This document shows, in pieces, positions 7,579 through 43,757 of a stretch of DNA of 64,000 nucleotides. The stretch lies in the NCBI GenBank assembly GCA_017557885.1, contig JAFYXV010000007.1:62001-126000 (forward strand), written 5' to 3'. This stretch comes from a bacterium (lineage in GTDB: Bacteria > Auribacterota > UBA3054). Both the position numbers and the translations under genes were made by a program. Each line of letters begins with the position of its first letter. Position 1 is the stretch's first letter. The notes beneath the pieces are model-generated. The model was given only the letters and a program-made list of their open reading frames with translations, did no database searches and was not told the DNA's origin.

Positions 7579-8849
7579 ACGATCGCCCGAAAAAAGGCAG
7601 ATCTAGCCTGACTCCCGTCTGCTCTTTCTGCGGGCGCGAGGCTTCCAAGGACAACCCGGTCATCTCCGGGATCTACGACGACGAGGTCTTCATCTGCGGC
7701 GCCTGCGCCAAAGCCTGCGCCTCCATCGTCAATGAGGGCTCCTCCTTCGACGGAGGAGAGGTTTCCCTAAAGACTCCCGCTGAGATCAAAAAGTACCTGG
7801 ACGATTACGTCATCGGGCAGGACCGGGCCAAAAGGTCCATCGCCGTGGCCGTCTTCACCCATTATCTGAGGCTGCAAGCCTTCATGAAGAACAAGGGGAA
7901 AGGCACCCTGACTAAAAAAATGACAGATCTGCCGAAACCCGTCGAATCCGACGTGGAGCTTGACAAGAGCAACATGCTGCTCATCGGCCCCACCGGCACA
8001 GGCAAGACGCTTCTGGCCAAGACGCTGGCGAAGATGATGAACGTTCCCTTCGCCATCTCCGACGCCACCACGCTCACCCAGGCCGGCTACGTCGGCGAGG
8101 ACGTGGAGAACGTCATACTGCAGCTTTTGCAGAACGCCGATTTCAACGTGGCCAGAGCGGAGTGGGGGATAGTCTATATCGACGAGATCGACAAGATCAG
8201 AAAGACCGGCGACAACGTTTCCATCACCAGGGACGTTTCCGGCGAAGGCGTGCAGCAGGCGCTTTTGAAGATCATCGAGGGGACTGTTTGCAACGTGCCC
8301 CCCAAAGGCGGAAGAAAACATCCCCTGGAGGAATACATAAAGGTGGACACCACCAACATCCTCTTCATCTGCGGCGGTGCTTTCAACGGTCTTGACACCC
8401 TGATCTCCCGGAGGCTCGGGAAAGGCAAGGTGGGTTTCGGCAACTCCAAGAGCGCCTCTCTCTCTTCGGGCGAAACGCTGTCCCGCGTGACCGGGGAGGA
8501 TCTCATTTCCTTCGGCATGATCCCGGAGTTCATCGGCAGATTGCCAGTCGTCGTCTCTCTTGACGATCTCAGGAAAGACGATCTCGTCAGGATCCTGACC
8601 GAACCCAAGAACGCCATCGTGCGCCAGTACCAGAGGCTCTTCGAGATCAACGGCAAGAAGCTTTCCTTTACATCGGACGCCCTGGATTGGATCGCGGAAA
8701 AGGCCATCGAGAAGAAGACCGGCGCCAGAGGTCTGCGCGCCATCATAGAGAATCTTATGACATCGCTTATTTACGATCTTCCCGAAAGCTCCTCGCCCCA
8801 GGAATACGTCATCAGCGCAGAGGAGCTGAAAAAAGGAGAAGCGCTTTAA
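7575..8849 (+). CDS. clpX: Clp protease ATP-binding unfoldase ClpX
   Basis: This 424-residue AAA+ unfoldase delivers substrates to ClpP. The N-terminal zinc-binding domain has the CX2C...CX2C set (CSFCGRE near residue 14 and CGAC near residue 39). Walker A is GPTGTGKT near residue 138 and Walker B is YIDEIDKI near residue 200. The AAA+ lid domain follows through the C-terminus. The pore-type loop GYVGEDV is intact. It begins within the clpP stop codon and lon follows four bases after its end. An insert of lysine-rich sequence near residues 100-120 is slightly longer than in E. coli but within family variation. Confidence 0.96.
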
Positions 8850-8853
8850 TTTT

Positions 8854-11286
8854 ATGGACAAAAAGAAAACACAGTTTTTGAAAAAAGAAGACGTTCCCAT
8901 TCCCAATCTTCTGCCCATGATACCGGTCAGGGACCTTGTGACCTGCCCTTATCTGGTCAGCCCCATTCTGGTGGGCCGCCAGGCTTCCATCCGGTCTTTG
9001 GAAATGGCGCAGGAAAAGGACAAGATAATTTTCATCTGCACCCAGCGCCGCGAGCAGACCGAGGAGCCCAGGCAGAAGGATCTCTACCCCATCGGCACGG
9101 TGGCCAGGATATTGCAGATCCTGCGCCAGGACGACACTGTCAGCATCCTGGTGGAGGGCATCGAGTGCGGAAGAATGGTGAAATTGGTCAACCGCCCCTT
9201 CAACCAGGCTCTCATTGAAAAGCACGAGCCCGCGGCGGACATGCTGGGCACGGAAAGCCTCGGCTACCGCCGGGCGGCTTTCCAGCTGTTCTCAGATTAC
9301 GTTTCCAAGAACCCCCGGCTTTCCGACGAGCTGGTGCGCACACTGTCGGAAGAGAACGACAGCAAGAAATTCTTTTACCTGGTCATCGGCAATCTCCTCA
9401 TAAGGAACGAGGAGAAGATGAAGCTTCTGGAATGCGATTCCATGAAAGCGGGCTACAAGCTTCTCTGCGAGATCCTCTCCCGGGAGATAGAGCTCCTTAA
9501 CGTTGAGCACAAGATCCTTGGAGAAGTCAGGCACCGCATCGACGAGCAGCAGAAATCCTATTTCCTGAACGAACAGATCAGGGCCATCGAGAAGGAGCTC
9601 GGCAAGAAAGCCTACAGCGAGGCTGATGATTACGCTTCCCTTTTTGCGAAGACAAAGCTTCCCGGGAACGTCAGGGAGGCGGCGGAAAAAGAACTGCAGA
9701 AGCTCGACCACATGGCTCCCTTCAGCCCGGAATCCACCGTGGTGAGAAATTATCTGGACTGGATCTTCGACATTCCCTGGGGCCAATACACCGAGGACAA
9801 GAAGGACATCAAGGAAGCCAGGGCCGTTTTGGACCGCTCCCATCACGGGCTCAAGGAGCCCAAGGAGCGCGTCATGGAATTTCTGGCTGTCAAGATCCTG
9901 AAGGAGCGCGAAAAGAGCAGGGAAGCGAGCGACGACAGCACGGTCCTTTGCTTGACAGGACCTCCGGGGGTTGGCAAGACCACTTTGGCCAAATCAGTGG
10001 CGGAAGCCCTGGGCAGGAGATTCGTCAGGATCTCTTTGGGCGGCGTCTCCGACGAGGCCGAGATCAGGGGACACCGCAGGACCTACATAGGCTCCATGCC
10101 CGGGCGCATCGTCCAGGCGCTTAAGAAAGCCGGCACCATGAACCCTGTGATATTGCTTGACGAAATAGACAAGATGACCATGAGCTACCACGGCGATCCC
10201 ACCGCGGCGCTTCTGGAAGTCCTGGACCCCGAGCAGAACAAGGCTTTCAACGACCATTTCCTGGAAGTGGATCTCGATCTTTCCAGGATCATCTTCATCT
10301 GCACCGCCAACGTGGAGGACGCCATCCATCCCACCCTGAGGGACAGGATGGAAAAGATCGCCCTCACCAGCTATACGGAACTTGAGAAACTGGCCATCGC
10401 CAGGGGCTATCTGCTGGAAAAGCAAAGGAAGGCCAACGGCCTGAACTCCCTTCCGGAGATCAGCGACGCCGCCATTCTGCGCGTCATCCGCGACTACACC
10501 TGCGAGTCCGGCGTGCGTCAGCTGGAGAGGCTTCTGGCCAGCGTCATGCGCAAGCTTGCCCTGGAGGCCATATCCGGAGGCGAGCCCAGAACGAAACTGG
10601 AGGAGTCGGACATCCGCAAATTTTTAGGCACTCCCAAGGAGTTTCCGGATCTGGAGCTGCCCAAGCCTGTTCCCGGCGTGGCCGTGGGCCTGGCCTGGAC
10701 GGAAGTGGGCGGCGCCATTCTGAAGATCGAAGCGCTTACGGTGAAGGGCAAAGGCGAGCTGATCCTTACCGGCCAGCTGGGGGACGTTATGCAGGAATCC
10801 GCCCGGGCGGCCCTCACCTACGTTAAGAAGAAACTTTCCGCGGAATCCAAGGACGAGAAATTCTTCGTTCAGCACGATATCCACATCCATGTTCCCGAAG
10901 GCGCCATCCCCAAGGACGGTCCCTCCGCCGGCATAACTCTGGCCTGCGCTTTGTATTCCGTTATCACCGGAATTCCTCTCAAGGAAAAGCTGGCGATGAC
11001 CGGCGAGATCACGTTGGCTGGCGCGGTCCTGCCCATCGGCGGCGTGAAGGAGAAACTGCTGGCGGCCCACAGGGCCGGCGTCCGGGAGATCATCATGCCC
11101 GGACGTTCGGAAGCGGAGCTTGACGACGTTCCGCCGGAAGTCCTCGCCGACCTTAAGATAAACAAAGTGGAAAGCATGGACGAAGTTATCGCCATAGCCT
11201 TTCCCGCCGGCCCCAAGGGCAAGATCGCCAAGGCGGGAAGAATTAGCAAGGACACAAAGAAAACTTCCAAAGCGGGTAAAAAATGA
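8854..11286 (+). CDS. lon: ATP-dependent protease La (Lon)
   Basis: This 810-residue Lon protease has the N-terminal substrate-recognition domain (PMIPVRDLV near residue 23), a central AAA+ module with Walker A GPPGVGKTT and Walker B ILLDEIDKM, and a C-terminal protease domain with catalytic Ser in PKDGPSAGIT and Lys in GGVKEKLLAAHRAG. It degrades misfolded and regulatory proteins in the cytoplasm. The start follows clpX by four bases with no close Shine-Dalgarno sequence, so it probably depends on coupling. The tail after residue 785 is lysine- and serine-rich, not part of the conserved fold, and overlaps uppS by four bases. Confidence 0.96.
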   Translation: MDKKKTQFLKKEDVPIPNLLPMIPVRDLVTCPYLVSPILVGRQASIRSLEMAQEKDKIIFICTQRREQTEEPRQKDLYPIGTVARILQILRQDDTVSILVEGIECGRMVKLVNRPFNQALIEKHEPAADMLGTESLGYRRAAFQLFSDYVSKNPRLSDELVRTLSEENDSKKFFYLVIGNLLIRNEEKMKLLECDSMKAGYKLLCEILSREIELLNVEHKILGEVRHRIDEQQKSYFLNEQIRAIEKELGKKAYSEADDYASLFAKTKLPGNVREAAEKELQKLDHMAPFSPESTVVRNYLDWIFDIPWGQYTEDKKDIKEARAVLDRSHHGLKEPKERVMEFLAVKILKEREKSREASDDSTVLCLTGPPGVGKTTLAKSVAEALGRRFVRISLGGVSDEAEIRGHRRTYIGSMPGRIVQALKKAGTMNPVILLDEIDKMTMSYHGDPTAALLEVLDPEQNKAFNDHFLEVDLDLSRIIFICTANVEDAIHPTLRDRMEKIALTSYTELEKLAIARGYLLEKQRKANGLNSLPEISDAAILRVIRDYTCESGVRQLERLLASVMRKLALEAISGGEPRTKLEESDIRKFLGTPKEFPDLELPKPVPGVAVGLAWTEVGGAILKIEALTVKGKGELILTGQLGDVMQESARAALTYVKKKLSAESKDEKFFVQHDIHIHVPEGAIPKDGPSAGITLACALYSVITGIPLKEKLAMTGEITLAGAVLPIGGVKEKLLAAHRAGVREIIMPGRSEAELDDVPPEVLADLKINKVESMDEVIAIAFPAGPKGKIAKAGRISKDTKKTSKAGKK

Positions 11287-12017
11287 CCGTAGAAGATCTG
11301 GACAAAACTAGGATCCCCAAGCATCTGGCGATCATCATGGACGGCAACGGACGCTGGGCCAAGGCCCATTCGCTGCCAACGAGGCTCAAAGGGCACGAAG
11401 CGGGCGCCGAAGCGGTGCGCAGGGCCCTAAAAGCCTGCGACCTCATGGGCGTGCGCTATCTGACTCTGTACACTTTCTCCACGGAAAACTGGAAGCGTCC
11501 CAAAGCGGAGGTGGAGGGCTTGATGGCGCTCTTAAGCCGCTTTTTGGACGCCAACGTGGAGGAGCTCAGGGAAAAGGGGATCAGGCTCAGGATCATGGGG
11601 GAGAGGAAGCCCCTTCCGGAAGCGCTTCTGGAAAAACTTGACAAGGCCTGCGAATACACGCTGCCCGGGAAAAAGCTTGATCTCATTTTGGCTTTGAACT
11701 ACGGCTCCAGGCTGGAAATAGTGAAGGCCGCCGCCAAGATCGCCCGCAGCTCCGCCGCCGGAGAGCTTGATCCTGAAAGTCTGGACGAGGAGACTTTCAG
11801 CCGCTTCCTTTATCTGCCCGACGTTCCCGATCCGGAACTGATGATCAGGACCGGCGGCGAGATGAGGCTTTCCAATTTCCTTTTGTGGCAGCTTTCCTAC
11901 AGCGAGCTTTACGTCACGCCTAAATTTTGGCCCGATCTTGAAACAGAAGACATAATCGCGGCGGTTGCCGCTTACCAGAAACGCGACCGGCGTTTTGGAG
12001 AGGTTTCCTTATGCTGA
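11283..12017 (+). CDS. uppS: Undecaprenyl diphosphate synthase (cis-prenyltransferase)
   Basis: This 244-residue cis-isoprenyl diphosphate synthase makes the C55 lipid carrier for peptidoglycan and LPS precursors. The family start IPKHLAIIMDGNGRWAK carries the catalytic Asp, followed by the STENW-type motif FSTENWKRP and the C-terminal DPELMIRTGGEMRLSNFLLWQ signature. The ATG overlaps the lon stop (ATGA) and the end overlaps cdsA by seven bases, so uppS and cdsA form a tight envelope-lipid module embedded behind the protease genes. The MEP kinase IspE, which supplies its substrates, is 7 kb upstream. Confidence 0.95.
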   Translation: MTVEDLDKTRIPKHLAIIMDGNGRWAKAHSLPTRLKGHEAGAEAVRRALKACDLMGVRYLTLYTFSTENWKRPKAEVEGLMALLSRFLDANVEELREKGIRLRIMGERKPLPEALLEKLDKACEYTLPGKKLDLILALNYGSRLEIVKAAAKIARSSAAGELDPESLDEETFSRFLYLPDVPDPELMIRTGGEMRLSNFLLWQLSYSELYVTPKFWPDLETEDIIAAVAAYQKRDRRFGEVSLC

Positions 12018-12925
12018 AATATCGTTTGCCCAGCGCCCTTTTGCTCATAGCGATTTTTTCCCTGGCCATCTGGGGGATCTACAAGCCCTATCTTTTCTGG
12101 CTTCTGCCCGTGCTGGCGCTGCTTTGCGTCCTTTTGGCGACACGCGAGATGTTCGCTATTTTAGTGGAAAGCGAGCCATACAAAAAGTGGGGCTTTTTCT
12201 CCGCCTTCTTTTTGACGGCGTCAGCTTATATCTTCTTCCGCTATCCTTCCTCTCAAAGGGCCAGGGTGGTCCTTATTTTCGCCCTGATATTTGTTTCCAT
12301 TGGCACTTTCCTTCTGCCTTTAATGGTAAACAGGATCAAAGGCGCCCTGGATTCGGTCGCCGCGACTTTTCTGACTTTGCTTTACGTGCCTGTGAGCTTC
12401 TCGTTCCTTTTGGGCGTGGCGCTCATAGGTTTCAAATGCACGAATCTGGACGGCCGCTTTTTCCTGCCTTATTTCGTCTTCATCGTTAAGGGAGCTGACA
12501 TCGGCGCCTACTGCGTGGGGACGCTTTTCGCCAAGTCTCCTCTCGGGAACCATAAGTTCGTTCCGGACATAAGCCCCAAAAAGAGCATCGAGGGAGTCTT
12601 CGGCGGCCTCTTGCTATCCCTTGCGGTGGGCGTTCTGGGCGCGCTTTATCTGCCCGGCGTTTCCGAGGCCATGACAAGGTTGGGAGGCAACATAATGAGC
12701 AACGCGAATCTCGGCAGGATCGTCGGCGCGGTGGTGCTGTCGCTGATATTGAGCTTGCTGGGTATCGTGGGGGACCTGGTGGAATCGGTCTGGAAACGCG
12801 ATTCCGGCATCAAGGATTCCGGAAGTTACATTCCCGGAATGGGCGGCGTATTGGACGTGGTGGACAGCCTTCTTCTGACGGCTCCCATCATGTACGCTTT
12901 GATATTGACAATCAGCCGTTTTTAA
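12011..12925 (+). CDS. cdsA: Phosphatidate cytidylyltransferase
   Basis: This integral membrane protein of 304 residues has about eight hydrophobic segments. It makes CDP-diacylglycerol from phosphatidate and CTP, the branch point of phospholipid synthesis. The C-terminal signature is present as WKRDSGIKDSGSYIPGMGG followed closely by LDVVDS (about residues 258-288), matching the CDP-diglyceride synthetase pattern. It overlaps uppS at its start, as in many bacteria where uppS-cdsA are paired, and hldD follows after 25 bases with its own strong AAGGAG. Confidence 0.93.
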   Translation: MLKYRLPSALLLIAIFSLAIWGIYKPYLFWLLPVLALLCVLLATREMFAILVESEPYKKWGFFSAFFLTASAYIFFRYPSSQRARVVLIFALIFVSIGTFLLPLMVNRIKGALDSVAATFLTLLYVPVSFSFLLGVALIGFKCTNLDGRFFLPYFVFIVKGADIGAYCVGTLFAKSPLGNHKFVPDISPKKSIEGVFGGLLLSLAVGVLGALYLPGVSEAMTRLGGNIMSNANLGRIVGAVVLSLILSLLGIVGDLVESVWKRDSGIKDSGSYIPGMGGVLDVVDSLLLTAPIMYALILTISRF

Positions 12926-19412: not shown

Positions 19413-21851
19413 ATGAAAAAAACTATTTTGTTAATCTGTGCCGTGATTTTCTTTATGGCTGAAACGTTATTAGCCGACACTGTCACCCAGGAAGTTGCGA
19501 ACGTCCAAAAATACGTTAAGGGCAAGACTACGCTTAAGCTGAGCGGAACGCTGACTGAAACCGCTATGCAAGCGCTTGCCGAAGGGGCGACGAGCGTCTC
19601 TGTCTGCAACAATCTCGGCAGTTACCTTTCTGCTCCAACACTCCTTCCCGAAGGCAAGAAAGGTTACGGGACAAAGACCGGTAGTCAGAAGATCTCCGTC
19701 AAATCGAAAAACGGAAAATTCAGTTGGACGGAAAAAGACGTTACCGCGAATTTTGCTTTTGTAGTAGGGGCTGAAACTGTAAAGCTCGACAAAGCGGCTT
19801 TGAAATCTTCCGGAACGATAGATACGAAAGATATCGACAACTTCAAGACGCAAAAGGCAACTGTTTTGGATATCCAGGCCTACGAAAAAGGCCAGGGAAG
19901 CGTCGCCGCCTACACCTTTACTCCTGAGATGACAGGCAACGGCTTCAAGCACGCGAATAAAGGCGCAGATCTGCAAGTTAAGTTTTCCGCCAATGCCAAA
20001 GGCAAAGCGACAGCAACATTCAAGCTTCTTCCCAACGCGGCTTCTCCTGCGTTCACAGGAGAATCTCCTGTAGATCCTCCTACGGTAGTGACAAACAGAT
20101 TGTACATGGTCATCGATCTTTCGGGAGGCCCCAGCGCCGAAAGCTATCCGATAAGCTATCTCAATGAAGTTCCGGAAGGCGGCTGGACGGAGGAATACAA
20201 GACCACAAAGTTGGTACTTAGCAAGATCAATGCTGGCAAATTCACTATGGGCAGCCCCGATGATGAACTGGGAAGAGACGATGATGAAGTCCAGCACGAA
20301 GTGACTTTGACCAAGCCTTTCTTCGCGGGTGTGTTCGAAGTCACCCAAAAGCAATATGAACTAATAACGGGAAACAATCCGGCGAATTATCAGGGAAACG
20401 CACGCCCTGTGGAATGCGTTTCATACAATAAGATCCGCGGAAAGGAAAAAGGCGCCGGTTGGCCGGATAACAATGAAGTCGACGAGGACTCTTTCTTCGG
20501 TATTTTGCGTGCTAAGACCGGTTTGGAATTTGATCTTCCCACGGAAGCCCAGTGGGAGTTCGCCTGCAGGGCGGGCACGACCACTGCTTTGAACAGCGGG
20601 AAGAATCTGTCAGAAAAGTTTGAGTGCGATGAAATGGCGGAAGTTGGCCGCTATTATTACAATCAAGAAGACGGCAAAGGCGGATACAGCGAGCATACTA
20701 CCGTCGGCTCTTATTTTCCGAATGCTTGGGGACTATATGATATGCACGGAAACGTATATGAGTGGTGTCTGGATTGGAAAGCCTCATACGACGGAGATGC
20801 CACTGATCCGAAGGGCAGAGAAGAAGGACATTACCGTGTTATCCGGAGCGGGTGCAATGGCAGTTCCGCCAGCAGCTGCCGCTCTGCTTTCCGCTACCCC
20901 CTCAGCCCCGGCTTCTCCGACTATGCCGACGGCTTCCGCGTTTTCTTGACAGGGTCCAATGAGCCGGCGCCTCCGCCGGGCACCAACACCTACATGGTCG
21001 TTGATCTTTCCGGCGGAACCAACGCAGCAAGCTTTGCGATAAGTTATCTCGACGAGGTTCCGGAAGGCGGCTGGACGGAAGAGTACAAGACCACCAAGAT
21101 GGTGTTGAGCAAGATCAATGCTGGCAAATTCACCATGGGCAGCCCCAAGGACGAACTGGGAAGATACAATGACGAAGTCCAGCATGAAGTGACTTTGACC
21201 AAGCCTTTCTTCGCGGGCGTGTTTGAAGTTACGCAGAAACAATATGAACTGATAATGGGAAACAATCCGGCGTATTATCAGGGGGACGCACGCCCCGTGG
21301 AATACGTTTCATACGATATGATCCGCGGAGCGGAAAAAGGCACGAACTGGCCCGCAAAAAGCGAAGTTGACGCAACATCGTTCTTTGGTATTCTTCGCTC
21401 CAAAACCGGCTTATCATTCGATCTTCCCACGGAAGCACAATGGGAATACGCCTGCAGGGCAGGCACGACCACTGCCTTGAATAGTGGAAAGAATTTGTCA
21501 GACGAGGATCAATGTGATGAAATGAATGAGGTCGGTCGCTGCTATGGCAATATGAATGACGAAAAGGGCGGATATGATGAACACACTACCGTCGGTTCGT
21601 ATCTTCCCAACGCCTGGGGATTGTATGATATGCACGGAAACGTGTTGGAGTGGTGCCTGGATTGGTACCAGTCAGATCTGGGCAGCGATCCGGCCACCGA
21701 TCCGAAGGGCAATACCGAAGGTCGTTATCGCCTCCTTCGCGGCGGCGGCTGGAACTTCTGCGCCAGCGATTGCCGCTCCGCTGACCGTGGCGAAGTCACT
21801 CCCGGCGAAGTCTACGGCTTTGGCGGGTTTCGTGTTTTCCTGGTTCAATAA
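19413..21851 (+). CDS. Secreted protein with two FGE-sulfatase (SUMF1, C-type-lectin fold) domains
   Basis: This 812-residue protein has a signal peptide (1-21) and a strong AGGAGG at 19399-19404. The N-terminal ~200 residues are beta-rich and unrecognised. Two FGE/SUMF1 units follow, at about 230-510 and 525-811, each starting with a DLSGG...VPEGGWTEEYKTTK lead-in and GKFTMGSP, and carrying FEVTQKQYELI, FDLPTEAQWE and WGLYDMHGNV. Each unit ends in a 33-residue RGG/RSG...CRSA.R....P.......GFRV cassette that is hypervariable. Catalytic formylglycine-generating cysteines are not evident, so a binding (lectin-like) role is more likely than enzyme activity. It ends the clpP-to-nth run and is followed by two terminators. 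It is related to the proteins at 24130 and 41427. Confidence 0.85.
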   Translation: MKKTILLICAVIFFMAETLLADTVTQEVANVQKYVKGKTTLKLSGTLTETAMQALAEGATSVSVCNNLGSYLSAPTLLPEGKKGYGTKTGSQKISVKSKNGKFSWTEKDVTANFAFVVGAETVKLDKAALKSSGTIDTKDIDNFKTQKATVLDIQAYEKGQGSVAAYTFTPEMTGNGFKHANKGADLQVKFSANAKGKATATFKLLPNAASPAFTGESPVDPPTVVTNRLYMVIDLSGGPSAESYPISYLNEVPEGGWTEEYKTTKLVLSKINAGKFTMGSPDDELGRDDDEVQHEVTLTKPFFAGVFEVTQKQYELITGNNPANYQGNARPVECVSYNKIRGKEKGAGWPDNNEVDEDSFFGILRAKTGLEFDLPTEAQWEFACRAGTTTALNSGKNLSEKFECDEMAEVGRYYYNQEDGKGGYSEHTTVGSYFPNAWGLYDMHGNVYEWCLDWKASYDGDATDPKGREEGHYRVIRSGCNGSSASSCRSAFRYPLSPGFSDYADGFRVFLTGSNEPAPPPGTNTYMVVDLSGGTNAASFAISYLDEVPEGGWTEEYKTTKMVLSKINAGKFTMGSPKDELGRYNDEVQHEVTLTKPFFAGVFEVTQKQYELIMGNNPAYYQGDARPVEYVSYDMIRGAEKGTNWPAKSEVDATSFFGILRSKTGLSFDLPTEAQWEYACRAGTTTALNSGKNLSDEDQCDEMNEVGRCYGNMNDEKGGYDEHTTVGSYLPNAWGLYDMHGNVLEWCLDWYQSDLGSDPATDPKGNTEGRYRLLRGGGWNFCASDCRSADRGEVTPGEVYGFGGFRVFLVQ
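20844..20942 (+). other. Hypervariable C-terminal cassette 1 (DGR variable-region-like)
   Basis: This is the 33-residue end of the first FGE unit in the 19413 gene. Framework residues match the other two aligned cassettes (R1, G3, A9, C12-A15, R17, P22, G30-V33), and the residues between differ. At variable positions 16, 18-21 and 23-29 all twelve codons end in C or T (TTC, TAC, CCC, CTC and so on), as expected if they derive from AAY codons by adenine randomisation. It lies mid-protein, because a second unit follows, which is unusual for an active variable region. Confidence 0.45.
21588..21746 (+). repeat. 159-bp block shared with 25561-25719 (copy 1)
   Basis: It matches 25561-25719 with one mismatch by eye. 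It encodes TVGSYLPNAWGLYDMHGNV through the RGG that opens the hypervariable cassette, in both FGE genes. Downstream of it the two genes differ at most codons. Confidence 0.9.
21738..21836 (+). other. Hypervariable C-terminal cassette 2 (DGR variable-region-like)
   Basis: This is the end of the second FGE unit, 15 bases before the stop. It has the same 33-residue framework as cassettes 1 and 3. Ten of twelve codons at the aligned variable positions are NNY; the two exceptions are GAA. The first three codons (RGG) belong to a block nearly identical to the 24130 gene, and the identity ends at the fourth codon, where variation begins. Confidence 0.45.
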
Positions 21852-21904
21852 AAAAGATACTCGCTTTCAGCCCTGTGCTGAACGAGAATAATCCATTCTA
21901 AAAG

Positions 21905-21934
21905 CAAGCGCGCCATCTGGCGCGCTTGTTCTTT
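21905..21934 (+). terminator. Rho-independent terminator of the clpP-to-FGE run
   Basis: An 11-bp perfect stem CAAGCGCGCCA/TGGCGCGCTTG (21905-21915 with 21918-21928; the innermost bases will open to form the loop) followed by TTCTTT. Confidence 0.85.
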
Positions 21935-21946
21935 GCCTGCTTTTTG

Positions 21947-22000
21947 CCGCGGATTATTTCGCTATCAAATTTAATAGCGAAAAGTCCGCGGTTATTTTTT
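21947..22000 (+). terminator. Second, bipartite hairpin with T-run
   Basis: CCGCGGA (21947-21953) pairs with TCCGCGG (21985-21991), and inside it TTTCGCTAT (21957-21965) pairs with ATAGCGAAA (21975-21983). GTTATTTTTT follows. It is a backup terminator or structural boundary before the RhuM pair. Confidence 0.7.
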
Positions 22001-22015
22001 GTTTGATATTGATTA

Positions 22016-22175
22016 TGTTTGCTATCTAAATCGATAGAATAATTCAAGAATCTTGTTTTCGTGGAAAAGTTTTCATATCATCTGGTAAACTCGATTAATC
22101 ATTCTTTTGAGTTTGCGATATGGAAAACGAGATAATCATCTATCAGCCTGATGAAACTATAAAGCTGCACGTTCG
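22016..22175 (+). repeat. 160-bp direct repeat, copy 1 (promoter and first codons of RhuM gene 1)
   Basis: It matches 23023-23182 with about four mismatches. It covers the upstream region, the putative promoter and the first ~18 codons, then identity collapses. The offset between copies is 1007 bp. Confidence 0.9.
22053..22081 (+). promoter_or_regulatory. Putative promoter of RhuM gene 1
   Basis: TTGTTT (22053-22058), a 17-base spacer and TATCAT (22076-22081), inside the direct repeat. The identical elements recur at 23060-23088 before gene 2. Upstream AAATCGAT/ATAGAAT motifs are shared and could be regulatory. There is no Shine-Dalgarno sequence before either ATG. Confidence 0.5.
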
Positions 22176-22986
22176 TGTAAAGAACGAAACAGTTTGGCTA
22201 ACACAAAATCAAATCGCTGAATTGTTTGGCACAAAAAGACCTGCAATAACTAAACACCTGACAAACATTTACAAAAGCGGAGAATTGGATAAAAAAAGTA
22301 CATGTTCCATTTTGGAACATATAGCCAATAAAAGAAAAAGATTGTATGAAACGGTGTATTATAATCTTGATGTTATTATTTCGGTCGGATATCGTGTAAA
22401 CACGATAAGGGGTATTCAATTCCGCCAATGGGCTACCCAAGTTCTTAAAGATTATCTCTTAAAAGGATATGCATTAAACCATAGAATCGAACTGCTTGAA
22501 ACCAAAACTGAAAAGAAATTTGACGAACATGATGACAGAATAACAAGAATAGAAAAAGAGATTGAGTTCTTTGTTAAGGCTTCACTTCCTCCTAGGCAAG
22601 GCGTTTTTTATGATGGGCAGGTCTTCGACGCCGATGTGTTTTTGACTAAGTTTATTTTGTCTGCCAAAAGATCTATTCTTTTGATCGATAATTATGTGGA
22701 CATTACGACTTTGGAAATGCTGGCGAAGAAGGGAAAGGGAGTAAGTCTTCGAATAGTTACATCTAAACGCGGGAATGAACTTGCGTCAAGTGACATCGAT
22801 AAGTTTAATGAGCAATATGGTGATTTGGTTGTATCCTTTTGTTCAAAATTTCACGATCGTTTTCTGATCATCGACGATAAAGAACTTTTCCTTATTGGTG
22901 CATCAATAAAGGACCTAGGTAAAAAATGCTTTGCTTTCACGAAACTGGACGCAGCAGAGATCGCTGGCTTGAAATCAAGAATTTGA
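22120..22986 (+). CDS. RhuM-family protein with C-terminal PLD-like domain (paralog 1)
   Basis: This 288-residue protein has an N-terminal RhuM (Virulence_RhuM) DNA-binding-type domain at about 1-125, with ETVWLTQNQIAELFGTKRPAITKHL (a helix-turn-helix) and the family hallmark VYYNLDVIISVGYRVNTIRGIQFRQWA. A short coiled coil at about 127-150 links to a C-terminal domain with SAKRSILLIDNYVD, and FHDRFLIIDDKELFLIGASIKDLGKK, an HxR...D arrangement like a degenerate phospholipase-D half-site. The RhuM family occurs in accessory regions and its function is unsettled. AT-rich composition and tandem duplication with the next gene suggest recent acquisition. Confidence 0.85.
   Translation: MENEIIIYQPDETIKLHVRVKNETVWLTQNQIAELFGTKRPAITKHLTNIYKSGELDKKSTCSILEHIANKRKRLYETVYYNLDVIISVGYRVNTIRGIQFRQWATQVLKDYLLKGYALNHRIELLETKTEKKFDEHDDRITRIEKEIEFFVKASLPPRQGVFYDGQVFDADVFLTKFILSAKRSILLIDNYVDITTLEMLAKKGKGVSLRIVTSKRGNELASSDIDKFNEQYGDLVVSFCSKFHDRFLIIDDKELFLIGASIKDLGKKCFAFTKLDAAEIAGLKSRI
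22561..22986 (+). repeat. 426-bp direct repeat, copy 1 (C-terminal domain of RhuM gene 1)
   Basis: It corresponds to 23553-23978 (offset 992 bp, because paralog 2 is five codons shorter). The two copies differ at scattered, mostly synonymous positions, and the encoded domains are almost identical. Confidence 0.9.
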
Positions 22987-23022
22987 GGAAACGTGTTGTT
23001 TTTTATAGCGACGTTTTTTCTT

Positions 23023-23182
23023 TGTTTGCTATTTAAATCGATAGAATAATTCAAGAATCTTGTTTTCGTGGAAAAGTTTTCATATCATCTGGTAAACTTG
23101 GTTAATCATTCTTTTGAGTTTGCGATATGGAAAACGAGATAATCATCTATCAGCCTGATGAAACTATAAAGCTGGACGTTCG
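23023..23182 (+). repeat. 160-bp direct repeat, copy 2
   Basis: Second copy of the promoter and first-codon segment, before RhuM gene 2. See 22016-22175 for limits and mismatches. Confidence 0.9.
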
Positions 23183-23978
23183 AATGGAAAACGAGACGGT
23201 CTGGCTTTCTATTGATCAAATGGCAGAGCTTTTTCAACGTAACAATAGTGTTATCGGGAAGCATATTCGCAATGTATTTAAAGAAAGTGAATTAGTAAGG
23301 GATTCAGTTTGGGCAAAATTTGCCTACACTGCATCAGATGGTAAAACATATCAAGTTGACTATTATAATTTAGATGTCATAATATCTGTTGGTTACAGAG
23401 TAAAATCATTGCGTGGCACCCAATTTAGAAAGTGGGCGACTAAGGTTTTAAGGGAGCATCTTCTCAAAGGATATAGTTTAAACAAGCGTTTTGAACAAGT
23501 AGAAGACAAATTATCTAAACATGATGTTCAAATAGAAGAACTCCAGAAAAATATTGATTTCTTTGTTAAGACTTCGCTTCCTCCTAGGCAAGGCGTTTTT
23601 TATGATGGGCAGGTCTTCGACGCCGATGTGTTTTTGACTAAGTTTATTTTGTCTGCCAAAAGATCTATTCTTTTAATCGATAATTATGTGGACATAACTT
23701 CTTTGGAAATGCTTGCTAAAAAGGGAAAGGGAGTAAGTCTTCGAATAGTTACATCTAAACGCGGTAATGAACTAGCGGCAAGCGACATCGATAAATTTAA
23801 TGAGCAGTATGGAAATTTAGTCGTTTCTTTTAGTTCAAAATTTCACGATCGTTTTCTGATCATCGACGATAAAGAACTTTTTCTTATCGGTGCGTCGTTA
23901 AAGGATCTGGGGAAAAAGTGCTTTGCTTTCACGAAACTGGACGCAGCAGAGATCGCTGGTCTGAAATCAAGAATTTGA
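23127..23978 (+). CDS. RhuM-family protein with C-terminal PLD-like domain (paralog 2)
   Basis: This 283-residue tandem paralog of the preceding gene shares its first ~18 residues and residues from about 143 to the end almost unchanged. The intervening RhuM domain is clearly diverged: the helix-turn-helix reads ETVWLSIDQMAELFQRNNSVIGKHI, and the following loop (SVWAKFAYTASDGKTYQ) has a different sequence. The hallmark YYNLDVIISVGYRVKSLRGTQFRKWA is intact. The linker coiled coil is also different. This leaves two proteins with a common effector-like C-terminus and different putative recognition modules. Confidence 0.85.
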   Translation: MENEIIIYQPDETIKLDVRMENETVWLSIDQMAELFQRNNSVIGKHIRNVFKESELVRDSVWAKFAYTASDGKTYQVDYYNLDVIISVGYRVKSLRGTQFRKWATKVLREHLLKGYSLNKRFEQVEDKLSKHDVQIEELQKNIDFFVKTSLPPRQGVFYDGQVFDADVFLTKFILSAKRSILLIDNYVDITSLEMLAKKGKGVSLRIVTSKRGNELAASDIDKFNEQYGNLVVSFSSKFHDRFLIIDDKELFLIGASLKDLGKKCFAFTKLDAAEIAGLKSRI

Positions 23979-24059
23979 ACAATACTAGCCTAGTTTTATG
24001 ACTTGTCTTCCTTTTCTTCCCCGTTTCTTTTGCGCGGAGTAGTACGCGACCTTCGCTTT

Positions 24060-24068
24060 TGCTACAAT
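24060..24068 (+). promoter_or_regulatory. Extended -10 promoter for the 24130 gene
   Basis: TTGCTACAAT-type extended -10 (hexamer TACAAT, 24063-24068) about 60 bases before the ATG. No clear -35. It resembles the TGCTACAAT box before rnfC. Confidence 0.5.
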
Positions 24069-24129
24069 TTATTAGCCAATAGCATTATAAAAACTTCAAA
24101 ACAATCATTGCCTCTTGGGGAGGAACCAA

Positions 24130-25824
24130 ATGAAAAATGCCATACTTGTTGGTATAGCTGCGCTTGTCTGTATTTCGGCATTCTGTGACGAATGCTGGTC
24201 GTCCGGCTTCCGCTTCGACGGAAGTGAGATCACGGAGGAAGCAATTATTTTGAAACCGACCGATCCCTTGGCCTACAGTAGCGCGCTCGCGGAAGGCGAA
24301 CCGAAGTCTCTTACCATAAACGTGGAAGACACTACGAACCCGGAAATATCGGCCAGCGTTTTCGCTGATTATTCCGAGACTGCCGTGGAAGGAACGGAAA
24401 CTTGGGATTACACAGACGAAGATTTCAAGGATTTTCCGACGGATGACACCTATCTTCTCACCGAAACGGTGACAAGCGATACTGATTCGAAAGTTCTAAA
24501 GAGAACTGTAACGATCCTGCCCGAGCCAATGGGCTTATTGCTAATTGCTTTCATCGGAGCACTAATTCTTCGCAAGCGGACCAAAAGTTTGATCGCGGTT
24601 TTGGCAATCATTACTATATGCTCTTTCAATGCCAAGGCGGACAGTTGTGTCAGTAACGTCAATTGTATGCAGATGTGGCCTTTTGACAGAAGCGTCATTA
24701 TTAACTACACCCTGACCTCCAACAGCGCCGAGCCCGTTTTCGACGTCAAGTTTTATGGATCGTTTGACAACGGCGAAACGACTTTTGACCTTGCGGAAAA
24801 AGGCACGATAACTAGGGACGGCGCAAATGGCACAATTTCCGGCACAGGTGAATTCAAAACAATCTGGACGCCGGACGAGAGCTTCTATGAGACTCACAGC
24901 GACGACATGCTGGTGAAAGTGGAAGCTAAAGAAAAGACGCCCCCTGACAGCAACACTTACATGGTAATAGACCTTTCCGGCGGAACCAACGCAACTAGTT
25001 TTGCGATAAACTATCTCGACGATGTTCCGGAAGGCGGCTGGACAGAGGAATACAAGACCACGAAGCTGGTCCTTAGGAAGGTCGAGGCAGGGAAGTTCAC
25101 CATGGGCAGCCCTGAGGACGAACGGGGAAGATACGATAACGAAGTCCAGCACGAAGTGATTTTGACAAAGGATTTTTACATCGGAGTGTTCGAAACGACG
25201 CAGAAACAGTATGAATTAATAAAAGGCGGCAATCCGGCGAATTATCAGGGAGACGCACGCCCTGTGGAATACGTTTCATACAATATGATTCGCGGAAGCG
25301 ACAAGGGTTCCGGTTGGCCAGCGAACAGCGACGTTGACTCAGATTCTTTCTTAGGCGTTCTGCGCGCCAAGACCAATCAGGCTTTCGACCTGCCCACGGA
25401 AGCGCAGTGGGAATATGCCTGCAGGGCGGGCACGACCACGGCGTTGAACAATGGAACAAATCTTATCGGTGTATATGACGACAGCAACATGAACATGCTT
25501 GGGCGCTATTGTTACAATTATACTGACGGGAAAGGCGGCTATAGCGAATATGCTCACACCACCGTCGGTTCGTATCTTCCCAACGCCTGGGGGTTGTATG
25601 ATATGCACGGAAACGTGTTGGAGTGGTGCCTGGATTGGTACCAGTCAGATCTGGGCAGCGATCCGGCCACCGATCCGAAGGGCAATACCGAAGGTCGTTA
25701 TCGCCTCCTTCGCGGCGGCAGCTACAACGCGAACGCGGCCGGTTGCCGCTCGGCGAACCGGTACTACTACGCCCCGTCGGACGGCATCGGCAGCATCGGC
25801 TTCCGCGTCCTTCTAGTTCCTTAA
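24130..25824 (+). CDS. Composite secreted protein: PEP-CTERM-like segment, internal signal-like helix, then FGE-sulfatase domain
   Basis: I place the start at the ATG preceded by GGGGAGG, giving 564 residues; an in-frame ATG five codons upstream lacks a ribosome site. A signal peptide (MKNAILVGIAALVCISAFC) leads a short beta-rich domain that ends near residue 131 in a PEP-CTERM-like tail: PEP, a hydrophobic stretch, then RKRTK. Normally such a tail ends a protein. Here it runs straight into SLIAVLAIITICSFNAKA, which looks like a new signal peptide, followed by an Ig-like beta domain and one FGE/SUMF1 unit (about 275-564) ending in cassette 3. Two genes appear to have fused in frame. An alternative is that the internal helices form a membrane hairpin. 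Confidence 0.75.
   Translation: MKNAILVGIAALVCISAFCDECWSSGFRFDGSEITEEAIILKPTDPLAYSSALAEGEPKSLTINVEDTTNPEISASVFADYSETAVEGTETWDYTDEDFKDFPTDDTYLLTETVTSDTDSKVLKRTVTILPEPMGLLLIAFIGALILRKRTKSLIAVLAIITICSFNAKADSCVSNVNCMQMWPFDRSVIINYTLTSNSAEPVFDVKFYGSFDNGETTFDLAEKGTITRDGANGTISGTGEFKTIWTPDESFYETHSDDMLVKVEAKEKTPPDSNTYMVIDLSGGTNATSFAINYLDDVPEGGWTEEYKTTKLVLRKVEAGKFTMGSPEDERGRYDNEVQHEVILTKDFYIGVFETTQKQYELIKGGNPANYQGDARPVEYVSYNMIRGSDKGSGWPANSDVDSDSFLGVLRAKTNQAFDLPTEAQWEYACRAGTTTALNNGTNLIGVYDDSNMNMLGRYCYNYTDGKGGYSEYAHTTVGSYLPNAWGLYDMHGNVLEWCLDWYQSDLGSDPATDPKGNTEGRYRLLRGGSYNANAAGCRSANRYYYAPSDGIGSIGFRVLLVP
25561..25719 (+). repeat. 159-bp block shared with 21588-21746 (copy 2)
   Basis: It has one mismatch to copy 1 by eye. 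The identity ends exactly at the first variable codon of cassette 3. Confidence 0.9.
25711..25809 (+). other. Hypervariable C-terminal cassette 3 (DGR variable-region-like)
   Basis: This cassette ends the FGE unit and lies 15 bases from the stop. The constant residues are encoded by G/C-ending codons (GCG, TCG, CGG, CCG), while nearly every position between them is NNC: TAC, TAC, TAC, GCC near 25762, then GAC, GGC, ATC, GGC, AGC, ATC near 25780. It reads like a template of AAC codons mutated at the adenines. Eleven of twelve aligned variable codons are NNY. No template repeat was found in the window. Confidence 0.5.
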
Positions 25825-25837
25825 AACGTTAGTTAAG

Positions 25838-25868
25838 CGTTTTTCTTTTTGCGAAGCAAAGAAAAACG
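25838..25868 (+). terminator. Hairpin after the 24130 gene
   Basis: CGTTTTTCTTT pairs with AAAGAAAAACG (25838-25848 with 25858-25868). It lacks a T-run after the stem, so it may only assist the following terminator. Confidence 0.45.
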
Positions 25869-25881
25869 TGCATTTGGAACG

Positions 25882-25918
25882 AAAAAAAGCGATGGCTTTT
25901 GGCCATCGCTTTTTTGTT
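25882..25918. terminator. Bidirectional terminator between convergent genes
   Basis: A-run, AAGCGATGGC/GCCATCGCTT stem, then TTTTTTG. The symmetric A- and T-runs serve both the plus-strand FGE gene and the minus-strand acyltransferase. Confidence 0.9.
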
Positions 25919-25940
25919 CGCAGATCAAGCGCACCTGCGC

Positions 25941-41426: not shown

Positions 41427-43757
41427 ATGAGATTTATTCTTGTTTCCTTGTCCCTTACTCTTGCCACGTTAAACTGCGTCTCGGCTGAGGTTACCAATGT
41501 TTTCTCTAGGGTCAGGGAAGACGGTAAGATTGAGATAGCATACGCATTAAAAGCAGATGATCTGAAGAATACCCTTCCGGTTTTCTCTGTAAAGTTTAGA
41601 GGCCAGTTGTACGGCAAGAAGCCTTTTACCCTAAAATCGATAGACGGTGCGGGAAAAACCGGCATCATTTTAGGCGCAGGTGTGCACGTAACTGTTTGGG
41701 ATGCCGCCAAGGATCGAAAAAAAGGCGACCTCAGCAATATCGATATAAGCGTACAGGTTGAGGATGTTTCAGATGAAGCGGCTTATCTTTGTCTCGATTT
41801 GAAAAAGTACAAAATGCGCTATCAGAACGAACCGCCGAACATACAAAAAAACAAATGCAAAACCAAGGAACTTTGGTTAAGAAGGATCGAACCAGCAACC
41901 TTCAAGATGAAGAATAATTTTACCGTAGTAATATCAAAGGCTTTCTATATCGGCATTTTTGAAACGACGCAAAAGCAGTTTAAAACCATCACCGGCTATA
42001 ATCATTCGAGATATATTGGAGCGGCAAGACCCGCTGAAAAAGTTTCATACGATATGCTTCGCGGCTTCGATAAAGGGAGCTTGTGGCCCAAAGGATACGA
42101 GGTTGATGAGACTTGTACCTATGTCGTAAAAAAAGGCGAGGAAAGAATAACTTTGGAGGGGCCGACCTTTTTTTACGCCTTACGCAGCAAGACGGGAAAC
42201 GATTTGATTTTTGATCTTCCAACAGAAACCCAGTGGGAATATGCAGGCAGAGCGGGAACCACAACTGATTTGAATAGCGGCAAAGACGTTACGAGTCAAC
42301 ATAATTGTCCAAATATGGATGAAGTCGGTCGCTATGTGGACAACGGAGGAGAAATTAAAATTGGCAAGGATTATGCGGCTCATACCGTTGTGGGTTCATA
42401 CCTGCCCAACGCCTGGGGTATTTACGATATACATGGCAATGTGTGTGAGTGGTGCCTGGACTGGTACGAGAAATATGACAATTACATTATAGACCCTAGG
42501 GGAGCAGAAAGCGGAGAATTTCGTATTCTTCGCGGCGGAGCATGGAATCAAGATGCTCAAATGTGTTCTCTCAATCATGTCACACATTTATCCACCTCTA
42601 ATTTCGATCCCGACAATTATGGCTTTCGCATCGCGTTAATCAGAAATGAATGTTCCCGCGATTTTGAGTATGTTTTGTCGCCTGAGACCGAAAATACTCT
42701 GCCGGTTTTTAAGATTAAGTTTTTTGCCGTGTCCAGGGACGGCCAAAAAATTCCGCTGGAGGAATTGGGGGAACTTGAAAACGACGGGGCTTCAGGAATA
42801 GTCGTGGGCGGTGGATCGCATAGAGTCACATTGCTTTATGATGAGAATTGTCAGGATTTCATCGACGAGCTCGAATTGCTCGTTGAGGCCGAGGAGATAA
42901 CTGATGAAGCAGATTATCTGATCCTTGATCTTCCGTCTTGTAAGATGCGGACATCAAAGGTTGCGCCAGATCTTAACGATGACAAGTGCAGAACCAATGA
43001 GCTTTGGCTCAAAAGGATAGAGACAAATTCTTTTTGTATGGGAAGTCCATCCGGTGAACTGGGGAAATCAGATGACGAAGCGTCTCATATGGTAGAGTTA
43101 ACTGAAGCCTACTATGTCGGCGTATTCGAAATGACCCAGAAACAATTTGAATTAATAACTGGCTATAATCCATCGCAGCATTTGGGAGAAACCAGGCCTG
43201 TGGATACCGTATCGTATAATGCGGTCAGAGGAAAGAAGAAAGGCAATCAATGGCCGCTTAACAGAGATGTTGATGAAGGCAGTTTTTTAGGATTGATCAG
43301 GAAAAAAGCAGGAAACACTTTTGACATTCCCACCGAAGCGCAGTGGGAGAACGCTTGCAGAGGGGGCACGAATACGGCCTTAAACAGCGGAAAGAATTTG
43401 ACCGACACAGGCGCTTGCACCAATTTGTCCGAACTGGCGCGCTATTCCGGCAATGGCGGAACAGATAAAGACGATGAAGGCAATTTTATAGCTCATGCTA
43501 TCGTCGGCTCTTATTTGCCTAATTTTTGGGGAATCTACGATGCTCACGGCAACATTGCTGAATGGTGCTTGGATTGGCACGCTCAATATGACGGCGACCA
43601 AACAGATCCTTTGGGGCCTTATTCAGGAGATTCTCGTATCCTTCGGGGAGGTTCATGGAGCGAACCTGCTCGTAATTGCCGTTGCGCTGCCCGCAAAAGA
43701 ACTCGTCCGGACAGCGTTAACAGCCGCCACGGATTTCGCATTGTAATAGTCAAGTGA
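41427..43757 (+). CDS. Secreted protein with two Ig-like/FGE-sulfatase units
   Basis: This 776-residue protein has a signal peptide (RFILVSLSLTLATLNCVSA). Each half contains an Ig-like beta domain (IEIAYALKADDLKNTLPVFSVKF; second copy near residue 410, FEYVLSPETENTLPVFKIKF) followed by an FGE/SUMF1 unit. The first unit has lost the GKFTMGSP entry motif (TFKMKNNFTV instead) and carries an inserted segment; the second retains FCMGSPSGELG, FEMTQKQFELI, FDIPTEAQWE. Both end in the RGG...GFR cassette. More diverged and more AT-rich than the 19413 and 24130 proteins. No ribosome binding site is obvious; TATGATAAAAT near 41385 may be its -10. Confidence 0.8.
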   Translation: MRFILVSLSLTLATLNCVSAEVTNVFSRVREDGKIEIAYALKADDLKNTLPVFSVKFRGQLYGKKPFTLKSIDGAGKTGIILGAGVHVTVWDAAKDRKKGDLSNIDISVQVEDVSDEAAYLCLDLKKYKMRYQNEPPNIQKNKCKTKELWLRRIEPATFKMKNNFTVVISKAFYIGIFETTQKQFKTITGYNHSRYIGAARPAEKVSYDMLRGFDKGSLWPKGYEVDETCTYVVKKGEERITLEGPTFFYALRSKTGNDLIFDLPTETQWEYAGRAGTTTDLNSGKDVTSQHNCPNMDEVGRYVDNGGEIKIGKDYAAHTVVGSYLPNAWGIYDIHGNVCEWCLDWYEKYDNYIIDPRGAESGEFRILRGGAWNQDAQMCSLNHVTHLSTSNFDPDNYGFRIALIRNECSRDFEYVLSPETENTLPVFKIKFFAVSRDGQKIPLEELGELENDGASGIVVGGGSHRVTLLYDENCQDFIDELELLVEAEEITDEADYLILDLPSCKMRTSKVAPDLNDDKCRTNELWLKRIETNSFCMGSPSGELGKSDDEASHMVELTEAYYVGVFEMTQKQFELITGYNPSQHLGETRPVDTVSYNAVRGKKKGNQWPLNRDVDEGSFLGLIRKKAGNTFDIPTEAQWENACRGGTNTALNSGKNLTDTGACTNLSELARYSGNGGTDKDDEGNFIAHAIVGSYLPNFWGIYDAHGNIAEWCLDWHAQYDGDQTDPLGPYSGDSRILRGGSWSEPARNCRCAARKRTRPDSVNSRHGFRIVIVK
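43644..43742 (+). other. Hypervariable C-terminal cassette 4 (diverged)
   Basis: This 33-residue cassette of the second FGE unit has the same spacing (R1, GG, A9, C12, R13, A15, R17, P22, GFR). Ten of twelve variable codons are NNY; the exceptions are AAA and AGA. The matching end of the first unit (42531-42632) is 34 residues and has lost the framework CRSA, so only this one fits. Confidence 0.35.

Follow-up and report, generated by a model that had tools for sequence, protein, structure and literature searches.

Are the hypervariable C-terminal cassettes of secreted FGE-fold proteins in a rumen bacterium the variable regions of a DGR, and is such an element at work in its genome? The cassettes lie in a stretch of 64,000 nucleotides (the window; G000:C7:62001-126000) of G000, a rumen Oligosphaerales-type MAG of 2.24 Mb in 13 contigs that is 92.7% complete. 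A first-pass annotation of the window had singled out three 33-residue cassettes, in which an invariant framework is interspersed with variable positions, and had read them as DGR variable regions. We set G000 beside seven sister species, a same-genus set of eight incomplete assemblies (83-93% complete), and beside seven other genomes that bring the class sample to 15. Oligosphaera ethanolica is the nearest cultured relative that we found.

Two genes carry the three cassettes. ORF1 (19413..21851, plus strand, as are all features with strand given here; 812 aa) starts with an N-terminal signal-peptide-like stretch and has two FGE-sulfatase (PF03781) domains: domain 1 (20178..20972, +; G000:C7:82178-82972), with cassette 1 at 20844..20942 (+), and domain 2 (21066..21848, +; G000:C7:83066-83848), with cassette 2 at 21738..21836 (+). 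ORF2 (24130..25824, +) encodes 564 aa from ATG, or 569 from an upstream TTG, and has a single FGE domain (25033-25821) with cassette 3 at 25711..25809 (+). Its first part, 24130-24620, contains an internal PEP-CTERM-like stretch (LPEPMGLLLIAFIGALILRKR) followed by a second signal-peptide-like stretch, and resembles a fusion of two secreted proteins. The three cassettes are in frame and have the framework that had been claimed for them. G000 as a whole has about 40 FGE domains (39 PF03781 matches; 44 protein matches), and about 26 of these end in a CRSA-type cassette (R-x-G ... CRSA-x-R ... GFRV) of 33-40 residues, with borders set by regular expressions that exclude some atypical cassettes. 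The seven sister genomes contain 16-41 FGE matches each.

The codons of the cassettes provide the first line of evidence. A recount at the twelve positions named as variable again gives 33 NNY codons out of 36, and every variable codon of cassette 1 is NNY. The three exceptions comprise two GAA codons, both in cassette 2, and the TCG at position 23 in cassette 3, which matches a fixed Ser codon (CCG TCG) of the O. ethanolica template described below. The reported excess of NNY over ordinary gene stretches proved to be above chance in a test of four-fold codons, both in G000 and across the genus. In 25 CRSA cassettes of G000, C or T is the last base of 87% of the four-fold codons found at variable positions, compared with 60% in the domain bodies (Fisher p=4e-13), and codons ending in C amount to 77% (n=155) and 36% (n=2458), respectively. 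Genus-wide, 101 distinct cassettes give 85% C/T endings at variable positions versus 62% in bodies (p=1e-33). The bias also distinguishes positions within the same G000 cassettes, where four-fold codons end in C at 119/155 variable and 145/283 framework sites (p=1.6e-7). Because four-fold codons share the C/T-ending bias, the amino-acid make-up of the loops does not explain it. The cleanest cassettes have C as the third base of nearly all variable codons (NNC); cassette 1 of the window and those at G000 C9:18094, C7:133390 and C7:134539 are among the NNC-rich ones. Across 14 distinct cassettes of one codon dialect (A, below) the variable codons take all or most bases at positions 1 and 2 and mostly C at position 3. 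Some cassettes of the family are not NNC-rich. A two-domain FGE protein of the same family elsewhere in the window (41427..43757, +; 776 aa) has two cassettes without the NNC signature, the second of which reads RGGSWSEPARNCRCAARKRTRPDSVNSRHGFRI.

The third codon position is ordinarily the least conserved. Among 91 paralogue pairs with 33-codon cassettes, third-position identity exceeded first- and second-position identity by more than 0.10 in nine; in body windows of those pairs, the same inversion occurred in 0 of 5,573, with a maximum of 0.015. Between cassette 3 and its counterpart in G000:C1:161122, identity at codon positions 1, 2 and 3 is.67,.64 and.91 in the cassette and.80,.84 and.54 in the body. 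Judged by sequence, this is how copies of one template would look after randomisation of its AAC codons. Randomised NNY codons among invariant, template-derived framework codons are a mark of DGR targets, and the cassettes have both. Inverted codon-position identity may thus serve as a test for hidden DGR targets where the genome has no RT.

At least two dialects can be told apart by their framework codons. Cassettes 1 and 2 of the window belong to dialect A (CGG GGC GGG, GCC, TCY GCY, CCC). Cassette 3 belongs to dialect B (CGC GGC GGC AGC TAC ... GCG ... nnT TGC CGC TCG GCG ... CGG ... CCG TCG) and shares its framework codons with G000:C1:161122-161910. The first-pass annotation had raised an objection to its own reading, namely that cassettes with TCC and cassettes with TCG in the framework could not all have been produced by a single template. 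One template is indeed excluded, and two or more could suffice: the mismatch is explained by the existence of at least two dialects, that is, by more than one template in the history of the family. Two template types occur inside one species in Treponema denticola (PMC4891356).

A complete DGR with a homologous target is present in O. ethanolica DSM 24202 (NZ_JAUSVL010000001.1). Target, VR, HRDC protein, RT and TR all lie inside 4.3 kb (locus L216: target 8507-10903, HRDC 11061-11567, RT 11564-12550, TR 12596-12739). The target combines LRRs with an FGE domain and shares 58% identity with residues 272-561 of window ORF2, so that in this genome a homologue of the window proteins is physically linked to an RT and a template. 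The HRDC protein has 168 aa; the RT has 328 aa and the motifs IGNLTSQ and YMDD. The template (RGGSWNNNANNCRSANRNRNWPSNRNNNLGFRLV) and the VR differ by 22 mismatches, 21 of them at template adenines and the remaining one at the 3' edge. When aligned to this TR, the window cassettes mismatch it at 14/26, 19/26 and 20/26 template adenines versus 18/73, 28/73 and 28/73 other positions. Together, the codons of the cassettes and the template of the relative point to adenine specificity in this genus. O. ethanolica provides a cultured strain in which randomisation could be tested. FGE targets beside IGNLTSQ-type RTs were also seen at two further loci (L225 and L246), in a rumen Kiritimatiellae MAG, there with a template-like repeat, and in a Bacteroidales MAG.

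Structural comparison leads to the same class of proteins. The AlphaFold model of the ORF2 FGE domain (pLDDT 95.7) has as its closest solved fold T. denticola variable protein 1 (TvpA; Z 31.1, rmsd 1.3, 216 residues), and its list of structural matches also includes TaqVP and Mtd; all three are solved DGR targets. The cassettes are thus placed like VRs, at the 3' end of genes for a PF03781 domain with a C-type-lectin/FGE fold. The formylglycine-generating enzyme/SUMF1 shares this domain family and fold with the window proteins, and human FGE aligns through the framework, which bears out the earlier caveat that the framework is general to the FGE family. The catalytic cysteines of FGE are C336 and C341, which also appear in the names of PDB entries 2aft and 2afy. 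Where the enzyme has this pair, the window proteins are variable and have no conserved cysteine pair. Since the catalytic stretch corresponds to the variable part here, enzyme activity is unlikely, and the family proteins are probably not formylglycine-generating enzymes. The analogy of TvpA and Mtd suggests that the secreted FGE-fold proteins may instead bind ligands.

We consider it probable that the cassettes are orphan, mostly frozen DGR targets, written in the past by DGRs with at least two templates, the core of which is now absent from the assembled genomes of the genus. The family would consist of secreted, non-catalytic binding proteins with an FGE (C-type-lectin) fold and with the cassettes as their variable regions. 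The templates, two or more in number and rich in adenine, would have followed the pattern R-G-G-S-W/Y-N-N-N-A-N-N-C-R-S-A-N-R-N-N-N-N-P...G-F-R, and reverse transcription would have randomised their adenines, so that AAC codons become NNC. By past retrohoming, copies would have been inserted in trans into many target genes, each time at the 3' end. Later the genus would have lost RT and template, the core, after which most cassettes would have been stably inherited, with recent bursts of change at some loci only. Against this stands the spread of cassette lengths, 33-40 codons, which a single template copied by plain retrohoming does not produce; our guess at its source is slippage within runs of AAC. 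What survives of the DGR variable-region reading is the codon footprint and the homologous target in a complete O. ethanolica DGR; its other half, a DGR at work in G000, does not find such backing. If the past origin is correct, the output of DGRs can outlive the DGR at large scale, as some 26 cassettes per genome, genus-wide, that were randomised and then inherited.

Searches for the core were negative. The RVT_1 profile has no match in G000, and what it matches in the seven sister genomes and in the remaining seven of the class sample is not DGR-like; the O. ethanolica RT as query yielded nothing further of that type. Other RTs in the class sample are of group II intron type (G008, G011) or retron-like (G010), or are long ORFs with other motifs (G005, G014), labels that rest on motifs judged by eye; none has the DGR motif GxxxSQ. 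G005:C178 (L062 745-2631) encodes a 628-aa RT-domain protein with a QGG motif, which is not DGR-like and is possibly a defence-type RT. For the template, three DNA patterns and a sequence profile were run against the window and the genome, and they hit cassettes of FGE genes and no template. At E<=1e-3 the profile hits 31 sites in G000, nearly all of which belong to whole or partial FGE domains. The template pattern, with as many as 3 mismatches allowed, is absent from all 15 class genomes. Thus neither a DGR-clade RT nor a template repeat, the components of a complete and active DGR, was found in G000 at 92.7% completeness, and the earlier statement that the window has neither now extends to the genome. 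A phage origin was considered and rejected: phage and plasmid records hold no FGE relative above 60% identity, and IMG/VR has no match to the window protein or the templates. Relatives of the O. ethanolica RT in IMG/VR are at most 36% identical, and 0/80 of those fetched have such a template.

Comparison between species shows how much the cassettes change. We compared orthologues with at least 90% body DNA identity, taking one pair from each of 30 clusters, as pairs inside clusters are not independent. Cassettes are identical in amino acids in 14/30 clusters, have two or fewer changes in 22/30 and have three or more in 8/30. Cassette 2 and its G004 counterpart have identical amino acids and one synonymous change, alongside 15 synonymous changes in the body. 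Cassette 1 differs from its G004 orthologue by 12 amino-acid changes and one synonymous change, and retains the framework along with the majority of third positions. The cassettes of the G006:C62/G003:C216/G001:C46 group show 11-14 nonsynonymous and 1-4 synonymous changes, and at a locus shared by G001, G006 and G002, 3-4 cassette changes accompany 1-4 amino-acid changes in the body. Overall, cassettes change amino acids at about twice the rate of bodies (0.068 versus 0.035 per codon) with an equal synonymous rate (N/S p=2.5e-4). The first-pass annotation had named the absence of RT and template, and a lack of excess variation among strains, as what would count against it. The former is what we found; as to the latter, there is a mild excess of cassette amino-acid change, between species.

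A DGR at work here is unsupported, given that RT and template were both not found and most cassettes are conserved across species. The cassettes look mostly inactive now, and their variety looks mostly inherited rather than still generated, since the machinery was not found in G000 or in the seven sister species. The bursts would fit a return of randomisation at some point in the history of the genus; alternatively, they may reflect strong selection after few mutations. Recent change at some loci although no RT is present counts against orphan, frozen targets, as do the incompleteness of all eight same-genus assemblies and the failure to find a template of this genus. It is conceivable, though we think it unlikely, that a DGR is still present and acts in trans, with RT and template on a piece that is missing from the assemblies (a plasmid, a phage, a contig left out of the bins or a stretch that the many FGE repeats broke up). 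Such an element could have produced bursts confined to cassettes, as in cassette 1 versus G004 and in the G006:C62 group, and the doubled amino-acid rate at equal synonymous rate. For the cassette of ORF2, a gene that is new in G000, the fetched set offers no close copy (best 62%), and remote targets have precedents (PMC7517822, PMC10907252). However, the RT is missing from eight genomes that are 83-93% complete, no template-like site occurs in the 15 class genomes or IMG/VR, and orthologous cassettes are mostly unchanged across species. Incompleteness alone would hide the RT in all eight genomes with a chance of about 2.5e-8 (the product of one minus completeness, assuming independent losses), a figure that is void if one cause underlies all the losses, for instance a mobile element left unbinned or repeats at which the assemblies break. 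It is more doubtful still that the genus owns no DGR and that a visiting mobile element, or a process independent of RT, rewrites the cassettes of dozens of secreted FGE proteins in trans in bursts and then leaves.

The locus of ORF1 and ORF2 differs between species. ORF1 has syntenic orthologues in four sister species. Between it and an acyltransferase-like gene, G000 has an insertion of ~3.9 kb (about 21992-25935) that consists of ORF2 and two tandem RhuM-like genes (PF13310; 22120-22986 and 23127-23978, with a common 5' flank and C-terminal half) and that four other species do not have. ORF1 domain 2 (21582..21746, +) and ORF2 (25555..25719, +) are identical at 163 of 165 bases in a tract that ends at the border of cassette 2 in the one and just upstream of cassette 3 in the other; the cassettes beyond are only ~56% identical. 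ORF2 has this recent tract in common with its neighbour ORF1, to which its body is related, and its dialect-B cassette came from elsewhere. Body and cassette were also separated by recombination in G003:C207:5224 and G007:C52:5723, the cassettes of which are 97% alike and the bodies 67%. Directly behind the gene at G000:C1:157829-158644 lies an out-of-frame 54-residue C-terminal FGE piece (G000:C1:157633-157800; L159), a possible silent cassette, and its core 17-mer recurs in G003:C120.

Such a tract that stops at the cassette, mosaic genes and an out-of-frame C-terminal piece are what would be expected if paralogues and incomplete silent copies exchanged cassettes by recombination (gene conversion), with no retroelement involved. 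Yet donors were not seen, the best matches among 135 parsed genus cassettes being 68% for cassette 1 and 62% for cassette 3, and exchange alone creates neither the inverted codon-position pattern nor the C-ending bias; as an account of the cassettes, we find it very improbable. Ordinary FGE divergence under selection on surface loops, with NNY as a by-product of amino-acid preference, can point to the generality of the framework and to the cassettes that are not NNC-rich, but we give it hardly any credence, as the C/T-ending bias persists in four-fold codons, it is in cassettes alone that the third codon position is better conserved than the first two, and in O. ethanolica the same domain family is under a complete DGR.

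The orphan-target reading places the G000 cassettes among known systems as follows. The O. ethanolica DGR resembles dialect B in several places of the framework (GCG, TCG GCG and CCG TCG). Unlike the window, it has an RT, an HRDC protein and a template, which make it a complete DGR in cis, and its target carries upstream BspA-type LRRs. Cyanobacterial DGRs with remote C-type-lectin targets share with G000 the many dispersed paralogous targets per genome and the VR at the 3' end; unlike G000, they have RT and template in the same genome as the targets (PMC7517822). The TvpA family of T. denticola has the same FGE/C-type-lectin fold; here too, several targets are dispersed through each genome, templates are of more than one type, and targets persist in strains that lack the core. 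Its complete systems include an HRDC accessory protein, which on this side is found in O. ethanolica. The present family differs in its unusually large scale of ~26 CRSA cassettes on ~40 FGE domains per genome, in the absence of the core from all eight genomes and in its varying cassette length. T. denticola strains without RT and TR retain target genes with VRs that are still adenine-patterned (PMC4891356). These strains are a direct precedent, and we therefore class the G000 cassettes as orphan DGR targets, not as a DGR.
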